This document shows, in pieces, positions 27,525-38,871 of a stretch of DNA of 64,000 bases (positions are counted from its first letter, which is position 1; the number at the start of each line of letters is the position of its first letter). The stretch covers positions 62,001 through 126,000 of the forward strand of contig NZ_FQYM01000006.1 of the NCBI RefSeq assembly GCF_900141705.1. The letters run 5' to 3'. A program made the translations under genes and the position numbers. Source of the stretch: Fibrobacter sp. UWP2. Its GTDB lineage: Bacteria > Fibrobacterota > Fibrobacteria > Fibrobacterales > Fibrobacteraceae. The notes below the pieces were generated by a model, which saw only the letters and a list, made by a program, of their open reading frames with translations, was not told where the DNA came from and did not search any database.

Positions 27525-28715
27525 TCACATGTCGCCCGTAAGGAGACGCGAGTCGTCGCGCACGTGCGTCAAAAGAAGCCCAAGCAGCAGGTAAAACACG
27601 GCCTGGCTCGCAAGCGGGATCAACAGCCCCGCCGCATCAAAGATATCGGCGCCGCGCTGCTCAATCGAAAGCCACGCGGGCACGGCGAACGTCGAAGGGA
27701 GCAAGCACGAGAAGCCGCGCATCCATGCCGGCATCAGGGCGGTAGGCCAGCTGAAGTTCGTGAGGAAGAGTATCGGGATGGATGCGTAGAGGAATATCTG
27801 CATCGCCGTTTCACGGCGCAAAAAGACTTGCGAAATCACCATCCCAAAGTTGATGACCGCGAAGAGGAAAACGATGGCGAACGCCACCATCGGGAGCACT
27901 TCTCCGCGGCGCGGGAAATCAAAGACGTTGTAAATGACACAGTGGTAGAACAAAATGAACGTGCAGTAATGCAAAAAGTATGCGAGCGACCGACCAAAAT
28001 AGCGGTAAGGGAGAGTCTCGTTCTCCACCGGGCTTTCACGGTGCTTGCGGCGGAACCTGCGGTGGGCGCGGGCGCCTCCCAAAATGCAGATGCCAATGAC
28101 CAGCGTTTGCTGGAGGATCACCACAAGCACGCTAGGAACCACGTAATTGGAATAGCTGCCAGTATTGTTGTAGAGCGTCTGGATGCTGAGCGGGACCGGG
28201 TCACGCATCGCCATCGCCTTTGCCGCTGGCACCTTTTTGCCGAGCGCAATGCGCTTTACCTTGGTGGTCGCCCCCACCGTGAGGGCGCACGTCGTGAACG
28301 CCGTGCCGATATTGCCGTGGAGCATCACGTAGGCTCCGTGGGTAAACACGTTCACGTTTACACTCTCGCCATTGCGCAGGTTTTTCTCCATATCCTGCGG
28401 GATGACCATGAAGCCATAGATGTCCTCGCTTGCAAGCGCCATCTCGGCTTCGCGAATTTCGGAGTAGATGTAGCGCACCTCGACCTGCTGCGTCGAAGCC
28501 GCCATCTGGGTCAGTTCGCGCGACATCATCGTATGGTCCAAATCCACAACGGCAACGGGGATTTTCGTCACCGTCTGCTTTACGTAAGGCGTGGGGTAAT
28601 AGAACGCGTAGAGCACTCCCGCCACCACAAGCAAAAGCACCGCTGCCGGATCCGTATAAAAAAGCTTCCATTCGGCAAACGCCACGCGGAATATGCGCCT
28701 AAAGAGTTCAATCAT
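27525..28715 (-). CDS. ABC-2 type transporter permease (2)
   Basis: A 396-residue YhhJ/YhiH-type permease. One N-terminal helix (LLLVVAGVLYAFYYP) is followed by a periplasmic domain (about residues 45-170, starting VAVVDLDHTMMSRELTQM), then five to six C-terminal helices, ending near LLLGLLLTH. This is the ABC2_membrane_3 layout. It overlaps the preceding permease gene by 8 nt, so the two are translationally coupled and probably form a heterodimer. No ATP-binding-cassette gene is found within the cluster or beside it, so the nucleotide-binding subunit must be encoded elsewhere or shared. Confidence 0.85.
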   Translation of the reverse strand: MIELFRRIFRVAFAEWKLFYTDPAAVLLLVVAGVLYAFYYPTPYVKQTVTKIPVAVVDLDHTMMSRELTQMAASTQQVEVRYIYSEIREAEMALASEDIYGFMVIPQDMEKNLRNGESVNVNVFTHGAYVMLHGNIGTAFTTCALTVGATTKVKRIALGKKVPAAKAMAMRDPVPLSIQTLYNNTGSYSNYVVPSVLVVILQQTLVIGICILGGARAHRRFRRKHRESPVENETLPYRYFGRSLAYFLHYCTFILFYHCVIYNVFDFPRRGEVLPMVAFAIVFLFAVINFGMVISQVFLRRETAMQIFLYASIPILFLTNFSWPTALMPAWMRGFSCLLPSTFAVPAWLSIEQRGADIFDAAGLLIPLASQAVFYLLLGLLLTHVRDDSRLLTGDM

Positions 28716-29916
28716 GCGGAGCCTCCTCCACCATGGCGGATGCGGGCTTGATTTCGGTCCCCGTCAAAGTGTTGTACTGAGGAAGGTTGCGAGCGGCCTC
28801 CCTCTTCGCGGCACGCTTCCAACGCATAAACATAAGGCGTCCGCCCAAAAGATTCCAGAAAAGCGCCATGGCGAGGAGAACCACAATGGGGTCCCAGGCC
28901 TGCGCCTTCCCTATGGGGCCAAGCAACATGGCCGCCTGCACCTTGAGAAGGTGGGTAAGCGGGAGGATCATCGCAAAAAGCTTTACTGCCAAAGGCATCG
29001 CCATGAGCGGGAACGTTTGCCCGGCAAAGGCAAAGGCGGGGCTCCCGATAACGCCCGCGACACTCGTGCCCATGCGCATGTTGCCCGTAATGCCCACAAA
29101 CGAAATCCCGGCACCGACGCAAGCGAGCACCATGGCGAGCTGTGCCACCGAGACAACGATGAATTCGTCAAAAGTCATTGGCGAGAGCGTGCGGTGGGCG
29201 TAGGCATACGTGCCTACCAGCGAAAGCCATTGCACCAGCACCAACGGGAGAGCCGTCGCAAGCCCGAGCGTCACGCGGGAATTGCCCGCTGCGGCGAGGA
29301 ATTCGCGAACGCGATGGTCGCGGAACGGCAGGCTCATCACGTAAACCGCCACCAGCATGCTAGCCAAGTGGAAAATGGACGTGATGAGGCCCATCGCCAA
29401 AAAGCCCTGGTAGTTGCCCAGGGTGTTGCCCACGGACTTGAGTTCCACGCGCACGGGTTCTTCCATGGCGCGAGTAAAAAGGTCTCCGCCGATTGTCGAG
29501 AATATAGAACGGACTTCCTTGGCGGCAAAGGTATTCGTGAGGTAGTTCTGCCCGCTAGAATACACCGGCACCACGGGAGTTTCAAGCCGGAGCGCCCGAC
29601 GTTCCATGTCGTAGGGGAACACGATGAACGCCTGGAGTTCTCCGCGAATTACCGCATGTTCGCAATCCGACAGTTGTTCGCACTCCAGCACAACGTCAAG
29701 CACAGGGCTCGCATCGAGCGCACGCGAAAGCCTATCGGCAAGCTCGGAACGGTCCTGCTTGACAATGCCTATGGGGATGTGCTGAATAATCTCGGCCGAG
29801 AAAACGTCGAGCATGAACACCGAAACGCCAACGGGCAAAATGAGCGCAATCAGCCACAGCACAATGTTGTGGCTGAAATAAATCTTGCGGACAGCCCTAA
29901 AGAAATCCCGGAACAC
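28708..29916 (-). CDS. ABC-2 type transporter permease (1)
   Basis: A 402-residue permease with the same layout as the next gene: an N-terminal helix (IVLWLIALILPVGVSVFML), a periplasmic domain (about 45-170, with PIGIVKQDRSELADRLSRAL), and about five C-terminal helices. Such proteins form the inner-membrane core of HlyD/TolC-linked exporters for drugs, lipids or glycans. It sits 8 bp after the HlyD gene and overlaps the next permease by 8 nt. Substrate unknown. Confidence 0.85.
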   Translation of the reverse strand: MFRDFFRAVRKIYFSHNIVLWLIALILPVGVSVFMLDVFSAEIIQHIPIGIVKQDRSELADRLSRALDASPVLDVVLECEQLSDCEHAVIRGELQAFIVFPYDMERRALRLETPVVPVYSSGQNYLTNTFAAKEVRSIFSTIGGDLFTRAMEEPVRVELKSVGNTLGNYQGFLAMGLITSIFHLASMLVAVYVMSLPFRDHRVREFLAAAGNSRVTLGLATALPLVLVQWLSLVGTYAYAHRTLSPMTFDEFIVVSVAQLAMVLACVGAGISFVGITGNMRMGTSVAGVIGSPAFAFAGQTFPLMAMPLAVKLFAMILPLTHLLKVQAAMLLGPIGKAQAWDPIVVLLAMALFWNLLGGRLMFMRWKRAAKREAARNLPQYNTLTGTEIKPASAMVEEAPHD

Positions 29917-29924
29917 AGGAATGC

Positions 29925-30944
29925 CTACGGGTTGACGATGTTCTCTGCCTGGATGCTAGCCACGGGGAAGAGCGCGCTCATACCTGGGCGGAGGTTTTCG
30001 ATTACGGCCTTCGGGCGCATGCGGACTTCAAATGACTTGAGGTCGAACCCGCCGCTTTCCTTGGAGCTGCGCCAGGTGGCGTAGTCGCCCACAGAGGCAA
30101 TGTAGCTCACTTCCATCTCAACAGTCTTGCCGAGCGCCGGGATAAAGATTTCAAAAGTCTTGCCCTTCGAGACGTTCTTGAGCAGGTCCTCGCGGAGGTG
30201 GAAAGTCGCCCAGGAATCGGAGAGATCGGTAATGGCGACCACCGGCATGCCCGAGCCCACGACCTCGCCTTCTTCGGCGAGCTTCACGGAAACTTCACCG
30301 GCGATGGGGGCGCGGATCTTGGTCTCTTCCAAGTACGCGTCCACTTCGGCGGTGGCACCGCGGGCCTGCATCACAAGCGCGTTGGCGGCGGCCTTGTCTT
30401 CGCTGCGGGCGCCGGCGACAGCCTGGTTGTACTGGGCCCTGGCGGCGTCGGCAGCGCTCTGCGTCGCCTTCATTTGCGTTTCGGCCTCATCCCTCTTTTG
30501 CAGGGGAATCACACCTTCGTTAAAAAGCTTCTGCACACGGTCATAAGTATTCTTGGCCAGGTTGGCGGCATCTTGCGCGCGGTCGGCCATGGCCTTGAGC
30601 GCAGTGATGTCTTCGCTGCGAGCACCATTCTTTGCCTTGGAGGCCTGCGCACGGGCGGCACCCAAAGCGCCTTGAGCCTGCATCTTTTTCGCCTCGATTT
30701 CGGGGCTACTAATCACCGCCACAATGGCGCCCTTCTCGACCATGTCGCCTTCGCGGAAGAACAAGTTCTCGACACGACCGGGGACCTTGCCAGCAACCAG
30801 CACGCGGCGGGCTTCAATTTGCCCTTGCAAGTAGGCTTCGCGCGGTTCCGTCGCGAACTTTTGCAAAGCGAGAATCCCAAGAACTACAAGCGCAATCAAA
30901 GCGAAAACGACCAGGACTTTTCCGATGAGTTTCAATACGTTCAT
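29925..30944 (-). CDS. HlyD-family membrane-fusion protein (ABC-2 cassette)
   Basis: A 339-residue periplasmic adaptor with a single N-terminal helix (VLVVFALIALVVLGILAL). A barrel-sandwich half-site (EARRVLVAGKVPGRVENLFFREGDMVEKG) is followed by an alpha-helical hairpin (about residues 85-200), the second half-site (IRAPIAGEVSVKLAEEGEVV) and a beta-barrel. The layout matches YbhG/YhiI-type adaptors that join ABC-2 permeases to TolC. It lies 3 bp after the TolC gene's stop and 8 bp before the first permease. Confidence 0.88.
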   Translation of the reverse strand: MNVLKLIGKVLVVFALIALVVLGILALQKFATEPREAYLQGQIEARRVLVAGKVPGRVENLFFREGDMVEKGAIVAVISSPEIEAKKMQAQGALGAARAQASKAKNGARSEDITALKAMADRAQDAANLAKNTYDRVQKLFNEGVIPLQKRDEAETQMKATQSAADAARAQYNQAVAGARSEDKAAANALVMQARGATAEVDAYLEETKIRAPIAGEVSVKLAEEGEVVGSGMPVVAITDLSDSWATFHLREDLLKNVSKGKTFEIFIPALGKTVEMEVSYIASVGDYATWRSSKESGGFDLKSFEVRMRPKAVIENLRPGMSALFPVASIQAENIVNP

Positions 30945-30947
30945 CTA

Positions 30948-32723
30948 TTACTCTCCTTTAATTTCTTTTGGCGCAGGTTCGGCAGCGGGCGTTCCCTCGG
31001 GAGCGGCCACCGGGTTAGCGGCAGGTTCAGCAGCGGGCGTTCCCTCGGGAGCGGCCACCGGGTTAGCGGCAGGTTCAGCAGGGGCTGCGGCAGGAGTCTG
31101 GATAGGCGTTTCGGCTGGAGCCTGCGCCGGGATTTGCTCGGGCACAACTTCTGCCGGTTTCTCGACCGGACGCTGCTTGGCGGCAAGCATCGTGCCCGCA
31201 TCGGCCACCTCGCCCGCAGCCTCCAGCAATCCGAGCCATGCAATCACGGCATCAAAATGCGCCTTCAAATCGGCAACCTGCAAACGCGACAAAGCCAGTT
31301 CGGCATCGACCACGTCGAGACCCGTCGCAAGGCCCGCCTCGTAGGCTCTCGTTTGGCTGCGGAGCGCTTCGTCGGCAAGCTCGCGAGTCTTCACCAAGCT
31401 CGCGAGGCGTCCTTTGGCATGCTCCAGTTCGCGCCAACGCTTTTCCACGAGCAAGTCGATGTTGTCCAAAGTCTGTTCTTCCATGCTCGAGAGCGAGCGG
31501 TCCAAAGCCTTGGCGTTACTCACCTTCGAGCGGGTCTCGCCACCCTTGAACAAATCCCACTGTGCCTTGGCTCCAATCGCCCATTCCGGTTCCAAAATCG
31601 TCAAATCCTTGGTGTAGAGTTCCTTGTAGCCAAAGAGGGCAATAGTCGGGAAGTAATCGGCACGGGCAGCGCCAATCGCCGCCTGGCTGCGTTTGCGTTC
31701 GGTACGCAGTTGACGAAGCCCAGGATGTTTTTCCTTGGCAATCTCCTTAAAATCTTCCATGGAGCGCACGTTCTCGGGGGCTTCCACCGGCGTTGTCGCC
31801 GTGAGGCTCGTATCGGTGTGGAGCAGGCTCGCCAGGGCCATGCGGGCAAGCGACTGATCGCGCAGAGCATCCTCGTAGGCGTTCTCGGCCTCGGCCAGGG
31901 CCACCTCGGCACGCAGGCGTTCCGCCTTGCTAATCTGCCCACCCGCTTCCAGCTTCTTGGAGCGTTCCAAATGCTCGGCCAGGTTCTTCTTGGTCGTCTC
32001 GCGCATCACCGAGAGCTCCTCGGCAAGGCGGAGCGTAAAGTACTTGGTCGCCACATCAAGCAAAATGGAGTTTTGCGCCATGTCGAACTCAGCCTTGCGG
32101 GCGTTCACGTTCTCCTTGGCGGCGTCATACGCCGAATAAATCTTGAGGCCCGTAAAAATCGGCCAAACCACGCTCAGCCTGGCGTTAAAGAACCAGTCGT
32201 CCTGAACCTTCTTTTTAAAGTCGGCGTTATCAATTTGAGCCTGGGCGCCCGCCATCTTTTGCGTGGCATCCTTGGCATAGGTGTCGGCGTTTTCTTGCGC
32301 CATCTCCTTCGCCTTGCTCTCGGCCATGCCGGTAGCCGTCGCGGCATCAAGTCCGGCGCCTGTCGCCTGCGCGTAAACCTGCTGGTACGCCTGGTTGTAA
32401 GTGTCAATGTAGGCCTTGGAGTAGGCTGCAGCCCCTGCGGCAGAGCCCAGCCCGCTAGCAAGGCCGCTCATCGCCGTTTGCACTTCGGTCAAATCAATGT
32501 ATATGGGGTCGTCAATTCTAGTAATGCCCGCGCTCAAGGTAACCGTCGGCATAAAACGGGAACGGGCCTCGCTCTGCCCGCTCTCCGCCATCTCGACCTT
32601 GGCTTTCTCTGCCTTGATTTGAGAGTTTCCCGCCTTGGCCATTTCCAGCGCATCTTGCAGAGACAAAGACGCCGCTTGCGCCAAAGCACTCCCCAAAGCT
32701 ATGTAAAGTAAACTCTTTTTCAT
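30948..32723 (-). CDS. TolC-family outer-membrane efflux protein with Pro/Ala tail
   Basis: A 591-residue TolC-like protein. The signal peptide MKKSLLYIALGSALAQA is followed by SLQDALEMAKAGNSQIKAEKAKVEMAES, the classical OEP start. A second OEP unit starts near residue 300 (APENVRSMEDFKEIAKEKHPGLRQLRTE). After about residue 500 a 70-residue Ala/Pro/Glu tail carries 16-residue repeats and ends in KEIKGE. I start at ATG 32723 because the signal peptide begins there; an earlier frame start adds 37 unlikely residues. The start lies 62 bp after the terminator at 32785-32810, so it has its own promoter and heads a four-gene exporter operon. Confidence 0.88.
   Translation of the reverse strand: MKKSLLYIALGSALAQAASLSLQDALEMAKAGNSQIKAEKAKVEMAESGQSEARSRFMPTVTLSAGITRIDDPIYIDLTEVQTAMSGLASGLGSAAGAAAYSKAYIDTYNQAYQQVYAQATGAGLDAATATGMAESKAKEMAQENADTYAKDATQKMAGAQAQIDNADFKKKVQDDWFFNARLSVVWPIFTGLKIYSAYDAAKENVNARKAEFDMAQNSILLDVATKYFTLRLAEELSVMRETTKKNLAEHLERSKKLEAGGQISKAERLRAEVALAEAENAYEDALRDQSLARMALASLLHTDTSLTATTPVEAPENVRSMEDFKEIAKEKHPGLRQLRTERKRSQAAIGAARADYFPTIALFGYKELYTKDLTILEPEWAIGAKAQWDLFKGGETRSKVSNAKALDRSLSSMEEQTLDNIDLLVEKRWRELEHAKGRLASLVKTRELADEALRSQTRAYEAGLATGLDVVDAELALSRLQVADLKAHFDAVIAWLGLLEAAGEVADAGTMLAAKQRPVEKPAEVVPEQIPAQAPAETPIQTPAAAPAEPAANPVAAPEGTPAAEPAANPVAAPEGTPAAEPAPKEIKGE
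30976..31071 (-). repeat. Coding 48-bp tandem repeat in the TolC tail
   Basis: A 48-bp unit occurs twice in perfect phase (30976-31023 and 31024-31071) with one base difference, and a third copy starts at 31072. It encodes AEPAANPVAAPEGTPA. Copy number is probably variable. Confidence 0.75.
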
Positions 32724-32784
32724 ACCGGTAATAAAATAAAAAAAAGCCCTTTTGCAAGCAACTCCGCCACTGACCAACAAAAAA

Positions 32785-32810
32785 GAAAACCCGACCAACG
32801 TCGGGTTTTC
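32785..32810 (-). terminator. Terminator between the two envelope cassettes
   Basis: GAAAACCCGAC and GTCGGGTTTTC form an 11-bp stem with a 4-nt loop. On the minus strand it is followed by a T-rich run. It lies 34 bp past the lamin-tail gene's stop and ends the DUF4956-VTC operon before the tolC promoter. Confidence 0.8.
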
Positions 32811-32843
32811 TCGAATGAAATACAAAACAACCAATACTACAAT

Positions 32844-34529
32844 TTACTTACCCATGGTCGGGGCTGCAGCAGTCCACGCATTTTCCTCGTAACCCATGGT
32901 CGTCTTGTCGCTACGCTGCAGGCTATAGCCAAAACCGTCAGCTTCCTTGAGCGTTGGCCAGCAATCGGAATAAAGCGTGGCATCGTGCCAAGTATAGAAG
33001 ATTTTTTCGTTTGTAGTGCCGGGGTTTTCAATAGCGTAAGGCTCCTTAATGGCAATGGTTTCGCTGCGGTTCGAGAGCTTGCCCTTGTAGTAGGCTATGG
33101 GAATCGTTTCTGCAATCTTGAACGCCGAGCGCACCTTGGCTCCCTGGCTTGCCATGGAGTCCGGCAAAAGCACCATCATCGAGTTCGCCGGGATAACATC
33201 AGACGAACCGAACGTCATGTTGATGCCTTCAATTTTCCAGCCCCTGCCAATCGTCGCATTGTAAAGTTTGAGGTCGGCAGCGGTGTTGTTCACGATTTCC
33301 ATAAATTCAAATCCCAAGCCTGCGTTGTTCGTTTCGGCGGGGTGGTAATGGATTTCGTTGATGTACACGGAACCAATCTTGAAAGAAGAATTGGCAGCAC
33401 CCGGAGTCGCCGTGGTCATGGGACCCTGGGCAATGGAACCATCGGCCAAGTCAAGAACGCCAGTCGTATACTGGCCAGCAGAGACCCAAATGCTCGATTC
33501 CTGACCCGGAACAGCACCATAGAGGTAAATTTCACCACCCTGGTCGCTCACGACCAGTTCCTTGTCAAAGTTCTCGGTGGCATTCAATACAAGGAAGCCC
33601 TTGGCCGGGACTGACCCGCTTGTGATGGTCAAGGTCTCGCCACGGCGCTGGACATAGACAGTCCAACCCGTGATGTCGACCGCCTCATCGCCCGAATTGT
33701 AAAGTTCAAGCCAGGCATTGGCACCGGTTGCATTCGGGGAAACTTCGTTGATGCGGACCGTATTCGAAACCTCTACGCAGGCGTCTCCACCCACACCGGG
33801 GTTACCGCCTGCTGTTTTGCTGGCGCACCAAGCCACAGACTGAGCCGCGTTGCCACCCACATAAACCAGGGAACTTCCCTTGCCGTTGGCGAGGCTCGGC
33901 CAAGGAGGTTCGTTGCTAAAGGCGCAGCTCACGTCGCCCTCGCCACGGATTTTCACGTTCACCACGTCGCCTTCGTTCACAAGTTTGTACGTATCAGGGT
34001 CCGTCCAGGGACCAAACACGCGGCCGGCAAACTGGGGATAAACCGTCTTGAACAAGTTGACATCGTTTGCCACAACAATGTATTCGCCCTTCTTCAAAGG
34101 TTCTGCAGGGAACACATAGTCGACCGCACCACTCAAGTGCATTTCGAAATTCGTCATGGCGTCCATGTCCATGCCGCCCGCAATGTAGATTTCAATCCAT
34201 TCCAAAGCAGAGCCGTCACCTTCCGGGGCGTTGTACATAATCTCGGAGCAGGCCATTTGCGGAGCGTCCGTATCGGACATCGAAGAGCTATAGATGGAGG
34301 AGCCCTTGGAGCTCGAAGATCCAGGCGTAGCCGCCGACGCCGGGGTGGAACCCGAAGAACTAGGATCATTACCTGCAGAAGCCGGAGTCGCGCCCGACGA
34401 AAGCACCGGGGTGTCGCCTCCTTGAACCGGGTTGTTTTCTTCTTCGCTGCTATCATCGCTGGAGCAGGCAACCATAGCGCTCATCAAGGAGATACAGGCG
34501 CCAGTCCATAACCACTTTTTCATGTTCAT
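32844..34529 (-). CDS. Lamin-tail-domain lipoprotein
   Basis: A 561-residue lipoprotein (lipobox AMVAC). A Ser/Pro/Thr/Ala-rich linker (about residues 25-90) connects it to three lamin-tail (LTD) domains. These start at ACSEIMYNAPEGDG (about 93), NTVRINEVSPNATG (about 258) and VYINEIHYHPAETN (about 398), with the telltale EWIEIYI, AWLELYN and EFMEIVN segments. Bacterial LTD proteins are exported, surface-associated and often encoded with CotH-type kinases and VTC-domain proteins. The Ser-rich linker suggests extension through the wall or from the outer membrane. A GAGGA site sits 7 nt before the ATG. It is the last gene of the five-gene cassette, 41 bp after the VTC gene. Confidence 0.8.
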   Translation of the reverse strand: MNMKKWLWTGACISLMSAMVACSSDDSSEEENNPVQGGDTPVLSSGATPASAGNDPSSSGSTPASAATPGSSSSKGSSIYSSSMSDTDAPQMACSEIMYNAPEGDGSALEWIEIYIAGGMDMDAMTNFEMHLSGAVDYVFPAEPLKKGEYIVVANDVNLFKTVYPQFAGRVFGPWTDPDTYKLVNEGDVVNVKIRGEGDVSCAFSNEPPWPSLANGKGSSLVYVGGNAAQSVAWCASKTAGGNPGVGGDACVEVSNTVRINEVSPNATGANAWLELYNSGDEAVDITGWTVYVQRRGETLTITSGSVPAKGFLVLNATENFDKELVVSDQGGEIYLYGAVPGQESSIWVSAGQYTTGVLDLADGSIAQGPMTTATPGAANSSFKIGSVYINEIHYHPAETNNAGLGFEFMEIVNNTAADLKLYNATIGRGWKIEGINMTFGSSDVIPANSMMVLLPDSMASQGAKVRSAFKIAETIPIAYYKGKLSNRSETIAIKEPYAIENPGTTNEKIFYTWHDATLYSDCWPTLKEADGFGYSLQRSDKTTMGYEENAWTAAAPTMGK

Positions 34530-34570
34530 AAGGATATCCTCGTTAATGTCCTAATCCTATATATATTTTT

Positions 34571-35389
34571 TTAAAAGTTTCCGCAAAGCTTTGTCCAATA
34601 TGGACTCTTGAAACGGCGTGGATTTTCGTATACTCGTTTCCATTCGGCGGCGGCATTGCCAAATTTAGAGAACGCCCCGTGCTTCAAATTCAAAGTCTTG
34701 ATGAGGTCGAACATCCAATACGGCATTTGGGAAGCCGGGCACTTGAGCTCCAGCACGGCATCACAGCCCGGCTGGAAGAACCTCGGGATGCCCGTTGAGT
34801 GCATGTAGTGCGGATCCACCGTGTAATCAAAACCATTCTCTTCACGGAACCGCATGCCCGTATCGATGGTCACGCGGGAGTACTCTTCGCGAAGTCCGAA
34901 CCAGGCACGACGCTTGTATTGCGTGAGGAGCCTCGGGTGCGCATTGTGGAGCCTGGTCTTGTAAATGAAGTCGTTCAGGTACATGCGGTCCTTGTCGGTT
35001 TTGCATGGCCATTCCTCGGGCTTCATGTTCCAAACCTCACCAGGGTTAATGCCCTTGATAGTCGCACGGCTCTTGTAGCAAATGTTCCTAATTTTGCGTT
35101 TGCATTCAAAGTGGAACGTGCCATCTTGCGCCGGATGCTCGCCATAGGTGCGCACACGCATGTTAAAGCGGTCCAAAAGCTGTTTCTTTTTCCAGCCCAA
35201 AAACGTCCAGCTGGGCGAATCCAAATACAAGTTCGTAATCCAGTAAAAGTGCCCCGGCGTAATCTGCGAATAATGGTCCTCTTCACAATACGGCTTAAGG
35301 AAGTCCCCGATCCGGTCCGCCCATTCGACGGGGATATGGTACTTGAGCTCGAACCGCTCGAGAAGGCTGAATCCGCGGGCTTCTGCCAT
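34571..35389 (-). CDS. VTC-domain (polyphosphate-polymerase-like) protein
   Basis: A 272-residue soluble protein of the VTC superfamily, whose eukaryotic member Vtc4 polymerises polyphosphate from ATP inside a basic beta-tunnel. The tunnel motifs are all visible: ELKY (14-17), YLDSP (55-59), RVR (78-80), ECKRK (95-99), YKRRAW (158-163), RVTID (172-176) and ELKCP (214-218). The charged pattern is complete, which argues for a working triphosphate-tunnel enzyme. No transmembrane segment is present. Bacterial VTC proteins are repeatedly found beside DUF4956 membrane proteins, as here. The product (polyphosphate or another phosphate polymer or modification) is inference. It begins 1 bp after the upstream TolC-like gene. 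Confidence 0.85.
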   Translation of the reverse strand: MAEARGFSLLERFELKYHIPVEWADRIGDFLKPYCEEDHYSQITPGHFYWITNLYLDSPSWTFLGWKKKQLLDRFNMRVRTYGEHPAQDGTFHFECKRKIRNICYKSRATIKGINPGEVWNMKPEEWPCKTDKDRMYLNDFIYKTRLHNAHPRLLTQYKRRAWFGLREEYSRVTIDTGMRFREENGFDYTVDPHYMHSTGIPRFFQPGCDAVLELKCPASQMPYWMFDLIKTLNLKHGAFSKFGNAAAEWKRVYENPRRFKSPYWTKLCGNF

Positions 35390-35390
35390 A

Positions 35391-36770
35391 TTACTTCAAT
35401 CCTTCGCGAAGATGGTTGTGGATACTCGTGTTGGCAAACACGCCCGCATAGTCCAAAAGCATGAGGTAGCGGTCGAAAATGTCGGCTTCGAGCTTGACCG
35501 CCTTCATGTCACTTTCAAGGGCGCTCTCGCGAGCGCGGAGCAACAGGAGCGGGTCGGAACCGGCGCTCTGGGCAAAGTCCTCGAAAATGCTTCCGGCGTT
35601 CACCTTTTGAACAAATTCCTTTTGCACCTTCCATTGGGCAACAAGCGCCACGATTTCTTCGGAAAGGCGCCCCACCCTCTGGTTCACTTGACGGACGGCA
35701 TCCAGGTAATCGCTCTCGGCATCGAGCTCTGCCACCTGGTTCTTGATGGCGCTGCCGTTATTGCTGTCGAAGAACGGGAGTTTTACAGCCAAATTCACAA
35801 AGAACTTGTCGGCAGTCTTGCGGTTGTCGTAATCGGGCACCAGGATATTGGCCGTTTCGGTACAGCCCATCACGCCATCGCAGCCCGTTTCCTTTTCAAA
35901 GTCGTCCACGTAGTCGGCGTAGGCGCCAGTACCATAAACATCGGCCGGTTCCAGTGTCTTGTACTTTTCCATGAGGGACTCAATCTTGAGCTCGTAGCCA
36001 ATGCCAATATGCGAAATGTAGTCGCGGTTTTTCGCCAAATCCTGCTTGGCCTTAGCGCGCTCGCTTTCCATCTTGCTCTTCGCCTTCATAATAAGCGGGG
36101 CGTTCTCGTCAATTTCAAAGCCCTTCTCGAGACTGGTCGCCAGTTCGTCCATGGTCGGGAGGAAGGAGCTGTCCAGTTCGACGCCTTCAAAGTCCGAGAC
36201 CCACGACTTCATCTTGAGTTCGGCATCGCGGAGAGCGGCACTGTCGCTCATGAGTTCGGCACGGAGGGTCGCCTCGCGTTCAATGGCCGAGATCAGGTCC
36301 TGCGTGTTGAAGGAGGAGGCGCCCGCCTTGAGGTGGAGCACCTCGATGCGGTCCTGGTTCACCTGGTAAACCTGCTGGTTCAGCGCGGCAATCTTGCGGC
36401 GATTCGTATAACGCAGGGCGCGCTCGTAGCGCTCGTAAAGCACCAAGGAACGGTCCACCGCCAAGCGGGCGTTCTGGTAATTCTTTTGGCTTTCGTAATA
36501 CGCCTTGTCGGCACTACCCGAGCCAAACGACTTGGGCTTAAAGCGGAGTTCAAAGTCGTGCGTTGCAAAAGAGAAACCGTCCAGCTTGTAGCGCAGTTCA
36601 ACGTTTTCCCACAGCTTGACAGGGGCTCCCGTGGAGGCCGCAGTGGAACGTTTTTCGGACGCCTGCAGTACGGGGTCATCTTTAACAGAATTGATCAACA
36701 TGTCCCATGTGAGCGGGCCCGCGAAAACGGAGGCCGCCGCCAACAGAGGGAGAATAGCAAAAGACTTCAT
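35391..36770 (-). CDS. TolC-family outer-membrane protein (VTC cassette)
   Basis: A 459-residue OEP-family protein. The signal peptide MKSFAILPLLAAASVFA precedes GPLTWDMLINSVKDDPVLQASEK, the usual first helix of TolC-like proteins. Long helical stretches at about 110-260 and 320-430 (NQVAELDAESDYLDAVRQVN) fit the periplasmic tunnel. A two-Cys insert (ETGCDGVMGC, about 290-300) is unusual for the family. The start overlaps the HlyD gene's stop by one nucleotide (TAATG), so translation is coupled. Together with that HlyD protein it would give the VTC cassette a channel through the outer membrane. Confidence 0.82.
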   Translation of the reverse strand: MKSFAILPLLAAASVFAGPLTWDMLINSVKDDPVLQASEKRSTAASTGAPVKLWENVELRYKLDGFSFATHDFELRFKPKSFGSGSADKAYYESQKNYQNARLAVDRSLVLYERYERALRYTNRRKIAALNQQVYQVNQDRIEVLHLKAGASSFNTQDLISAIEREATLRAELMSDSAALRDAELKMKSWVSDFEGVELDSSFLPTMDELATSLEKGFEIDENAPLIMKAKSKMESERAKAKQDLAKNRDYISHIGIGYELKIESLMEKYKTLEPADVYGTGAYADYVDDFEKETGCDGVMGCTETANILVPDYDNRKTADKFFVNLAVKLPFFDSNNGSAIKNQVAELDAESDYLDAVRQVNQRVGRLSEEIVALVAQWKVQKEFVQKVNAGSIFEDFAQSAGSDPLLLLRARESALESDMKAVKLEADIFDRYLMLLDYAGVFANTSIHNHLREGLK

Positions 36771-37858
36771 TACTTGCCCTTGAGGATTTTGTTGGATTCA
36801 GAAATGGTCACCATTTCGCCCAACAGGAACGGGTTCTGTTCAGGAATCTTGATCGTGACTTCACGACCGTAGACCGGCATTTCGGCCATTTTCCACATGC
36901 GGGTCGGGAACGGCACAATGCGGCTCGAAAGACCGACGACCTCGCCTTCCACAGCCTTGCCCGTGCCGCCGAGAGTCATCACCTTGACCGTCTCGCCAAC
37001 GTCCATGCGCTGGTAAACTTGTTCGTTGATGTAACCGCGAACGAGCGTCGGGGATTTGCGGGTGAGCGTCACCACCGGGGTAAAGCTCGAGACCTTTTCA
37101 CCTTCGCGGACGTTCACATCGCCCACGACCCAATTTTCCTTGCTCACCACGGTCAGTTCCTGGAATTCCTTTTGGAGGGATTCCAATTCCTTGCGAAGGG
37201 TTTCGGCTTCGCTCTTGCCCGTCGACTTTTGAAGGTTGCTGCTGCCGCGGAGGAGGGCGATTTGTTCGTTCGCGCTCTTTTGCACCAAGGCAAGTTCGTT
37301 CTTGAGGCTGTTGATCTGCATGGTCATGGCGTCATTGCCATCGCCACTAGCCTTCGAAGAAGACAGGCTCTTGAGCTTCGCCGAGATTTCCTTGTTCTTT
37401 TTGTATTCGGTTTCTAGGCGGTTGATCTCGGAGCGGAGGTTCGAACTGCGGGAGGCGGCGTCGGCCTTGATGGCCGCCACCTTCTGGTTGATTTCGGCAG
37501 TGCCCAGACTGCTACGGCCCTCGATGGCGTCAAGTTCGCGGTTAAGTTCGGCAATGCGGAGGTTCAGGTCCGGGCGGTTCAGTTCAATGATGGTGTCACC
37601 AGCCTGGATTTCTTGACCGGGAACCACATGGATTTTCACAATCTCGGTAGCAGCCGGAGCGCTGATGATGGTTTCACTCGCTTCGGCAATGCCCTGGAAC
37701 ATGGCGATTTTACCCTGATAAAGGAGACCTAGACCAATGGCAGCAATAAGAGCCAGGATCCAAGCGAGGGAGAGTTTGTGGCCATACACGTAAGCCACTC
37801 CGGCGTTGGACTTGTGGGCGTTCCAAAAATTATCGAGGAGATCTTCAAGCTTATTCAT
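36770..37858 (-). CDS. HlyD-family membrane-fusion protein (VTC cassette)
   Basis: A 362-residue adaptor. One transmembrane helix (about residues 30-47, LAWILALIAAIGLGLLYQG) is followed by a biotinyl-lipoyl-like half-motif (PAATEIVKIHVVPGQEIQAGDTI), a long coiled-coil hairpin (about 105-235) and a beta-barrel segment (EKVSSFTPVVTLTRKSPTLVRGYI). The sequence is clearly different from the HlyD protein at 29925-30944. It is the second gene of the cassette, 11 bp after DUF4956 and overlapping the outer-membrane gene by one nucleotide. No pump protein is encoded with it; DUF4956 is the only multi-pass membrane partner. Confidence 0.83.
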   Translation of the reverse strand: MNKLEDLLDNFWNAHKSNAGVAYVYGHKLSLAWILALIAAIGLGLLYQGKIAMFQGIAEASETIISAPAATEIVKIHVVPGQEIQAGDTIIELNRPDLNLRIAELNRELDAIEGRSSLGTAEINQKVAAIKADAASRSSNLRSEINRLETEYKKNKEISAKLKSLSSSKASGDGNDAMTMQINSLKNELALVQKSANEQIALLRGSSNLQKSTGKSEAETLRKELESLQKEFQELTVVSKENWVVGDVNVREGEKVSSFTPVVTLTRKSPTLVRGYINEQVYQRMDVGETVKVMTLGGTGKAVEGEVVGLSSRIVPFPTRMWKMAEMPVYGREVTIKIPEQNPFLLGEMVTISESNKILKGK

Positions 37859-37869
37859 TTTTCATCTCC

Positions 37870-38553
37870 TTACATTTCCGTGGTGGCGTCTTGCATCATG
37901 AACTGTACGTCCGAGATGCCCTCGACCTTAGACAACATCGTGAGAATTTCGGCCGCGGGCTTGGTTGCACGCAGGCGAATCTGGTAGGCCACGTCCAAGC
38001 GCGCCCCGCCGTCCACTTCACGCATGGTAATGAGGATGAACGTCTTGAGGTTCCCCTTCATAATATCTTCGATCTGGCCGCGCACATGCGGTTCGTTCGG
38101 GAGGGCAAAGCGGAGCATGCCATCAAAGAAGTGCTTAGTGCCGAGGCCCGTGCGGGAAAGCAAGAAGGCGACACAGCAGAAGGCGATGGTACCGCCGAGG
38201 GCGGCTCCCCAACTGAACACACCGCAACCAATGCCTGCACCCAGACTCATAAATATGAACATGATGTCGCGAGGGTCCTTGAAGCTCGTACGGAAGCGCA
38301 CAATGGAGAGGGCGCCCAACATACCGAGGCCACGGCCTACGTTATCGCCAATGGCCTGCATCACCGTGCAGGCGACCATGGAGCTCAGCACAAGGGCCTG
38401 AACAAAGTTACGGGAATAAGAAAGTCCAAGGAAGGTCTTTTCGTAAGTCCAACCGATAATGGAAGAAAGGATGAACGCTAAAAGCAGTGAGTAGACCAAG
38501 GTTATGATGGTGGCATTAGCGCCGCTGGATTGGACCGCAAGAAGGTCGAGCAT
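37870..38553 (-). CDS. DUF4956 multi-pass membrane protein
   Basis: A 227-residue protein with three to four transmembrane helices in its first 130 residues (for example TIITLVYSLLLAFILSSIIG and GGTIAFCCVAFLLS). A conserved loop GLGMLGALSIVRFRTSFKDPRDI is the hallmark of DUF4956. The C-terminal 90 residues form a soluble ferredoxin-like or ACT-like domain. I start at ATG 38553, which has GGAG 6 nt upstream, rather than at the longer frame from 38592. DUF4956 genes sit beside VTC-domain genes across bacteria, and a membrane channel or synthase-linked role is often supposed but not shown. It is the first gene of the five-gene cassette. Confidence 0.85.
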   Translation of the reverse strand: MLDLLAVQSSGANATIITLVYSLLLAFILSSIIGWTYEKTFLGLSYSRNFVQALVLSSMVACTVMQAIGDNVGRGLGMLGALSIVRFRTSFKDPRDIMFIFMSLGAGIGCGVFSWGAALGGTIAFCCVAFLLSRTGLGTKHFFDGMLRFALPNEPHVRGQIEDIMKGNLKTFILITMREVDGGARLDVAYQIRLRATKPAAEILTMLSKVEGISDVQFMMQDATTEM

Positions 38554-38840: not shown

Positions 38841-38871
38841 AAAAAAAGGATGGCCGGAGCCATCCTTTTTT
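38841..38871 (-). terminator. Terminator of the nfnAB operon
   Basis: AAGGATGGC and GCCATCCTT form a 9-bp stem with a 3-nt loop. It is flanked by A7 on one side and T5 on the other, so it can act in both directions. It is 26 bp past the nfnB stop on the minus strand. Confidence 0.85.

Follow-up and report, generated by a model that had tools for sequence, protein, structure and literature searches.

What does a gene for a VTC-type polyphosphate polymerase do in one run with genes for a periplasmic adaptor and an outer-membrane channel? The question is raised by a cassette of five genes in a stretch of 64,000 nucleotides from Fibrobacter sp. UWP2 (contig NZ_FQYM01000006.1, positions 62,001 to 126,000; hereafter the window, in which all coordinates are given unless a locus label precedes them). 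The cassette encodes a DUF4956 membrane protein, a HlyD adaptor, a TolC-like channel, a VTC-domain enzyme and a lipoprotein with lamin-tail domains (LTD), and an original prediction, made from the sequence alone, had proposed that the adaptor and channel form a dedicated path for the VTC product. The features concerned are as follows.

37870-38553, minus strand: DUF4956 integral membrane protein, 227 residues (PF16316, 50.9 bits)
36770-37858, minus strand: HlyD/EmrA-type periplasmic adaptor, 362 residues, with one N-terminal membrane helix (PF13437, 48.9 bits)
35391-36770, minus strand: TolC-like outer-membrane channel protein, 459 residues (OEP, E 0.0074; AlphaFold2 model)
34571-35389, minus strand: VTC-domain (triphosphate tunnel) polyphosphate-polymerase-like enzyme, 272 residues, cytoplasmic (PF09359, 102.8 bits)
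32844-34529, minus strand: LTD lipoprotein with three lamin-tail-domain stretches and a Ser-rich linker (PF00932, 94.5 bits)
32783-32812, minus strand: intrinsic terminator at the cassette end, with a 13-pair stem (6 GC pairs) and a T-run
38841-38865, minus strand: hairpin and T-run ending the upstream gltD-like gene (GGATGGC-TCCG-GCCATCC-TTTTTTT, read by eye in the sequence)

All five minus-strand open reading frames were located in the predicted order and at the predicted coordinates, and domain matches were obtained for them. The terminator proposed to close the unit at 32785-32810 was found at 32783-32812, and a search for terminators between the five genes, which would have divided them into separate transcripts, gave no strong one. 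The gap between VTC and LTD measures 41 bp and is AT-rich. At the other end, the hairpin at 38841-38865 ends the gltD-like gene, so that the cassette begins as a unit of its own; this hairpin comes from direct reading and is missing from the list produced by our terminator scan. The lipobox of the LTD lipoprotein reads SAMVAC.

If the conduit genes belong with the VTC gene, they should be found with it elsewhere. VTC is present in 136 of the 168 genomes of the phylum Fibrobacterota, and gene order was mapped in 120 VTC neighbourhoods together with the window (121 loci). Two arrangements were seen: type A, in which DUF4956, HlyD, TolC and VTC stand together, with LTD in nearly all, and type B, which is usually VTC-DUF4956 alone and in which HlyD/TolC never adjoin. 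The survey of linkage that the original prediction had called for thus gave 94 type-A loci, from 19 genera and five families, and within the genus of the window all 66 loci examined were of type A (64 of them complete, the other two truncated at contig ends). The genes are closely packed, with gaps of ≤ 100 bp at 91/91, 89/94, 94/94 and 90/91 of the loci for the four junctions, and the LTD gene, which as a fifth member is mostly a Fibrobacterota addition, adjoins VTC in 90 of the 91 type-A loci of the phylum that have it. Some genomes (G015, G034 and G159) hold types A and B together. The type-B VTCs, often accompanied by a CotH kinase gene (L083, L098, L104, L078 and others), form a second subfamily, which shares the phylum, and at times the genome, with the cassette type. 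Close relatives in which a VTC of the cassette kind is unlinked from the conduit were not found; the conduit-less VTCs of f1/g2 and f1/g4 belong to a different VTC clade.

The same core was found in other phyla, which rules out a feature peculiar to Fibrobacter. When GTDB species genomes were scanned with a VTC profile, the confirming sequence of which did not itself come from a type-A locus, 53 loci were obtained, 43 of them outside Fibrobacterota; HlyD lay within 4.5 kb in 36 of these 43 and DUF4956 in 35, and many of the others were cut by contig ends. The DUF4956-HlyD-TolC-VTC core, often with CotH, was present in Desulfobacterota (Desulfonema, Desulfoluna), Bdellovibrionota (including Bdellovibrio bacteriovorus kdesi), Myxococcota and others, and one planctomycete has a partial core, TolC-VTC-CotH, at a contig end. 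The order is DUF4956-HlyD-TolC-VTC in Bdellovibrionota and Fibrobacterota, HlyD-TolC-VTC-DUF4956 in Desulfobacterota, and VTC-DUF4956-HlyD followed by an OEP-positive gene in Myxococcota, so that the four genes have stayed together through rearrangement, which points to a functional linkage. In B. bacteriovorus kdesi (L162:5387-9762), DUF4956, a HlyD with an added C-terminal propeller domain (see below), a 387-residue TolC-like gene and VTC form one run; its genome has PPK1 and no CotH.

We also sampled Bdellovibrionota by VTC alone (192 genomes, 39 of them positive, from which 40 neighbourhoods were taken). The VTC scores were bimodal, 19 lying at 276-325 and 21 at 90-168. HlyD adjoined VTC in 19/19 of the high-scoring set, with TolC detected in 17 and DUF4956 in 18 (one locus being cut by a contig end), compared with HlyD or TolC in 0/21 of the low-scoring set; for HlyD the Fisher p is 8e-12, with shared ancestry ignored. 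In a tree of 99 VTCs, 54 of the 55 type-A entries fell into one cross-phylum group (support 89/97), which also holds two Bdellovibrionota entries whose TolC had been overlooked by the first model. The tree and the segregation in Bdellovibrionota together indicate that the conduit-linked VTC is a distinct subfamily.

These results bear on the simplest alternative, that ordinary efflux genes have come to stand next to a VTC gene by accident. Genes for HlyD and TolC are widespread, and directly downstream on the same strand (28708-32723) there is indeed an OEP channel gene with a Pro/Ala repeat tail, followed by HlyD and an ABC2 permease. This is an ordinary, unrelated efflux set, separated from the cassette by the terminator, and a HlyD similar to its own lies at a comparable distance in about half of the genus. 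Chance neighbourhood of the cassette genes is nevertheless refuted by linkage conserved, in rearranged form, over several phyla and by the segregation of the conduit with one VTC subfamily, and we give it practically no credence. The dedicated HlyD/TolC path is, on the contrary, strongly supported by the unbroken linkage in the genus, by the linkage across phyla despite rearrangement and by its restriction to one VTC subfamily.

The next question is what the enzyme makes. The window VTC exceeds the PF09359 cut-off of 23 by a wide margin. Taken alone it gave no match in the PDB by phmmer, and the family profile was required, the best match of which was Vtc4, the catalytic yeast subunit (E 4e-11), with Vtc2 and Vtc3 ranking behind. 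A complete set of tunnel motifs had been claimed for the enzyme, and this is borne out: 14 of 14 Vtc4-type tunnel positions are invariant across 140/140 cassette VTCs, a total in which a few loci are counted twice. They include the equivalents of Vtc4 K200, R264, R266, R361, R373, E426, K428, S457 and K458, where positions other than R264, R266 and E426 carry putative numbers taken from alignment; in the window VTC the R264/R266 pair corresponds to R78/R80. In yeast Vtc4, R264 and R266 are indispensable for polyphosphate (polyP) synthesis (PMC8749416), and R264A/R266A/E426N is the inactivated form behind the cryo-electron microscopy structure of the VTC complex (PMC9911596). The window protein consists of the VTC domain alone, with neither an SPX domain nor a Vtc1-type transmembrane channel, its partner being DUF4956. 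A plasmid collection held merely five VTCs, all distant.

In bacteria, polyP is regarded as a reserve kept in the cytoplasm and synthesized by PPK enzymes. Neither PPK1 nor PPK2 was found in the window genome, so that VTC is the sole recognized candidate for a polyP synthase there. Across the genus, PPK1 is missing from nearly all genomes (three carry it) and PPK2 from 13/13 of those tested, and VTC is nearly universal. The tunnel-enzyme superfamily also includes hydrolases (triphosphatases), and the window genome has one PPX/GppA; on these grounds the bacterial VTC might instead degrade phosphate polymers or transfer phosphate from them, with the conduit importing or clearing them. We regard this as very improbable, given that, among solved structures, the profile comes nearest to the active polymerase Vtc4, with Vtc2 and Vtc3 after it, and that HlyD/TolC systems export.

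What kind of conduit the adaptor and channel form was judged from profiles and models. The HlyD profile matches EmrA (8zar, 3.1e-7) and MacA (about 1e-5) and is therefore of the EmrA/MacA type. The TolC-like protein falls below the OEP cut-off by sequence (16.6 versus 22 bits), with 12 of its 24 homologues matching OEP at E ≤ 0.05, and neither its profile nor that of DUF4956 found relatives in the PDB by sequence, for which reason models were used. The AlphaFold2 model of the channel, built from the 24 homologues, has a predicted local distance difference test (pLDDT) score of 81.5; its best Foldseek match is Escherichia coli TolC (E 1.5e-11), and every one of the 41 matches at E ≤ 0.001 is a channel of the TolC/OprM type. 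As in the tripartite exporters (EmrAB-TolC, MacAB-TolC and type I secretion), then, an EmrA/MacA-related adaptor is paired with a channel of TolC fold. Unlike those systems, the five genes include no ABC, MFS or RND pump, the cassette gaps in most relatives being too small to hold a pump gene; DUF4956 and VTC stand in that place, and the adaptor often has a propeller fused to it.

This fusion was seen in Desulfobacterota, Bdellovibrionota, Myxococcota and deeper Fibrobacterota, in which HlyD carries a C-terminal domain of ~290 residues (L088:6191-8167, L176:5520-7715, L162:6060-7820, L181:10444-12543 and others); in genus g27 it is encoded on its own, by a gene that lies between those for HlyD and TolC (L096:7212-8168). 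Weak matches of 11 of its 14 members to the phytase-like PF13449 (sub-threshold PF13449/DUF3616) suggest a propeller, and its invariant acidic residues hint that it binds metal or phosphate. The profile found no solved relative in the PDB. The domain has been lost in Fibrobacter.

No other part of the cassette is as conserved as DUF4956, which in the various phyla is 36-53% identical to the window protein and has 23 invariant alignment columns, among them R86, R88 and R178. In its AlphaFold2 model (pLDDT 76.8), four membrane helices are followed by an ACT-like domain at the C-terminus. Most of the PDB structures that match the model are ACT domains, the C-terminus of Mycobacterium tuberculosis MgtC (2lqj) among them, and the membrane part is unmatched. 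The sequence match to MgtC is weak (E about 0.03). As the only inner-membrane protein of the core that could do so, DUF4956 could stand in for the transporter, a reading that its invariant Arg residues favour. ACT-like domains are, however, often ligand sensors, and this resemblance to MgtC, with a HlyD propeller of unassigned role in most phyla, gives some support to a different account, in which the conduit exports a protein, lipid or ion, DUF4956 is an MgtC-like regulator or carrier, and the cytoplasmic VTC senses or buffers ATP or phosphate and so regulates the conduit. A mere sensor would not need the catalytic tunnel residues, all of which are kept; moreover, VTC-DUF4956 is a core shared with type B, and the conduit looks to have been added to the VTC pair rather than the reverse. 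We consider this account the least unlikely of the alternatives, but unlikely all the same.

The reading that we prefer, and to which we give an even chance, is that the cassette is a polymerase-coupled exporter of a phosphate polymer across the envelope, in which both the product and its transport are what we infer. It is built on the analogy with the yeast VTC complex, where the polymerase is placed at the entrance of a membrane channel with a basic lining, and where making the polymer and translocating it are coupled (PMC9911596). The cassette resembles that complex in the active-site residues of the tunnel domain and in having a small multi-helix membrane protein as neighbour; it differs in lacking SPX and a Vtc1-type channel, in having DUF4956 as partner and in having HlyD and TolC for a second membrane. 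In such an exporter, the cytoplasmic VTC would make polyP or a closely related phosphate polymer from ATP and pass it to DUF4956, acting as inner-membrane pore or dock, and the HlyD adaptor and TolC-like channel would conduct it over the periplasm and outer membrane to the surface. The driving force would come from polymerization together with the membrane potential, a mechanism suggested for the yeast complex, and this would account for the lack of a pump. At the outer membrane of Fibrobacterota the product may be received or anchored by the LTD lipoprotein, and in genomes with surface CotH-type kinases these may draw on it.

Several points weigh against such an exporter. In its resemblance DUF4956 goes with MgtC-type proteins and not with the Vtc1 channel, which makes its role as a pore a guess, and residues 84-88, which contain the conserved RFR, are the least confident stretch of its model. 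The putative propeller of HlyD, lost in Fibrobacter, has no assigned function. TolC-family channels, to our knowledge, carry proteins and small molecules and are not known to carry long polyanions, and we found no characterized bacterial VTC protein in the literature searched.

Where, then, do the CotH kinases belong? The original prediction had remarked on the absence of CotH, which is correct for the window cassette but misleading for the genome, where ten CotH genes lie elsewhere (ruling out a loss), and for the phylum, where CotH heads the same cassette in members of f7, f10 and f5. CotH also adjoins the cassette in Desulfobacterota, where some copies are fused to LTD. By genus, VTC and CotH occur together in 27 cases in the phylum, VTC alone in one, CotH alone in two and neither in 11, and at least eight of the ten CotH proteins of the window genome have a lipobox or signal peptide. 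Upstream of one type-A cassette (L088:617-5409) lie an arylsulfotransferase-like protein bearing a Por secretion tail, a protein that combines FGE-sulfatase and carboxypeptidase-regulatory domains, and then a CotH; these are possible surface substrates of the system.

Such company allows the proposal that the exported VTC product is the phosphoryl donor for CotH kinases outside the cytoplasm, where ATP is not available to them, and that the cassette thus powers surface phosphorylation. The occurrence of CotH, polyP polymerase and DUF4956 together as an accessory set in Gram-positive Pel loci (PMC7112168) fits it as well. Three Bdellovibrionota genomes (B. bacteriovorus, Halobacteriovorax and a third), however, have the core and no CotH anywhere in the genome, which rules out CotH as an obligatory partner, and CotH accompanies the conduit-less type-B VTC too. 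We know of no CotH that uses polyP, and we rate donor supply as unlikely, below the regulated conduit considered above.

Another VTC-CotH locus has been described, NELoc-2 of Clostridium perfringens (PMC2879425). These Gram-positive sets share with the cassette the neighbouring VTC and CotH genes, and in the Pel loci DUF4956 too, but, having a single membrane to cross, they are without HlyD or TolC, and they adjoin exopolysaccharide synthases; they are probably the type-B arrangement. The company of VTC, DUF4956 and CotH is therefore already known (PMC7112168, PMC2879425), and the association with HlyD/TolC is the new part. Our incomplete literature search found nothing linking VTC-DUF4956-CotH to HlyD/TolC; nor did it find anything on DUF4956 with VTC together or on VTC with Bdellovibrio, and the main text of a transposon-sequencing paper on B. 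bacteriovorus mentions neither HlyD nor VTC. By analogy, the polymerase-coupled exporter recalls the synthase-dependent exporters (Pel, Bcs and Alg), in which an inner-membrane polymerase feeds a dedicated envelope path, although the cassette has no glycosyltransferase and no TPR/beta-barrel exporter, its channel is of the TolC type and the polymer expected is phosphate rather than sugar.

The cassette may thus represent an undescribed machine, spread over several phyla, in which polymer synthesis by VTC powers the one-step export of polyP through DUF4956, HlyD and TolC to give a surface or secreted polymer, a fuller claim of which we are somewhat more doubtful than hopeful. If true, it would provide a genetic handle on exported polyP in Gram-negative bacteria, a role for the widespread DUF4956 family and a reason for the company that VTC and CotH genes keep; and, since B. 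bacteriovorus has the core and its genes can be deleted singly, it is directly testable.

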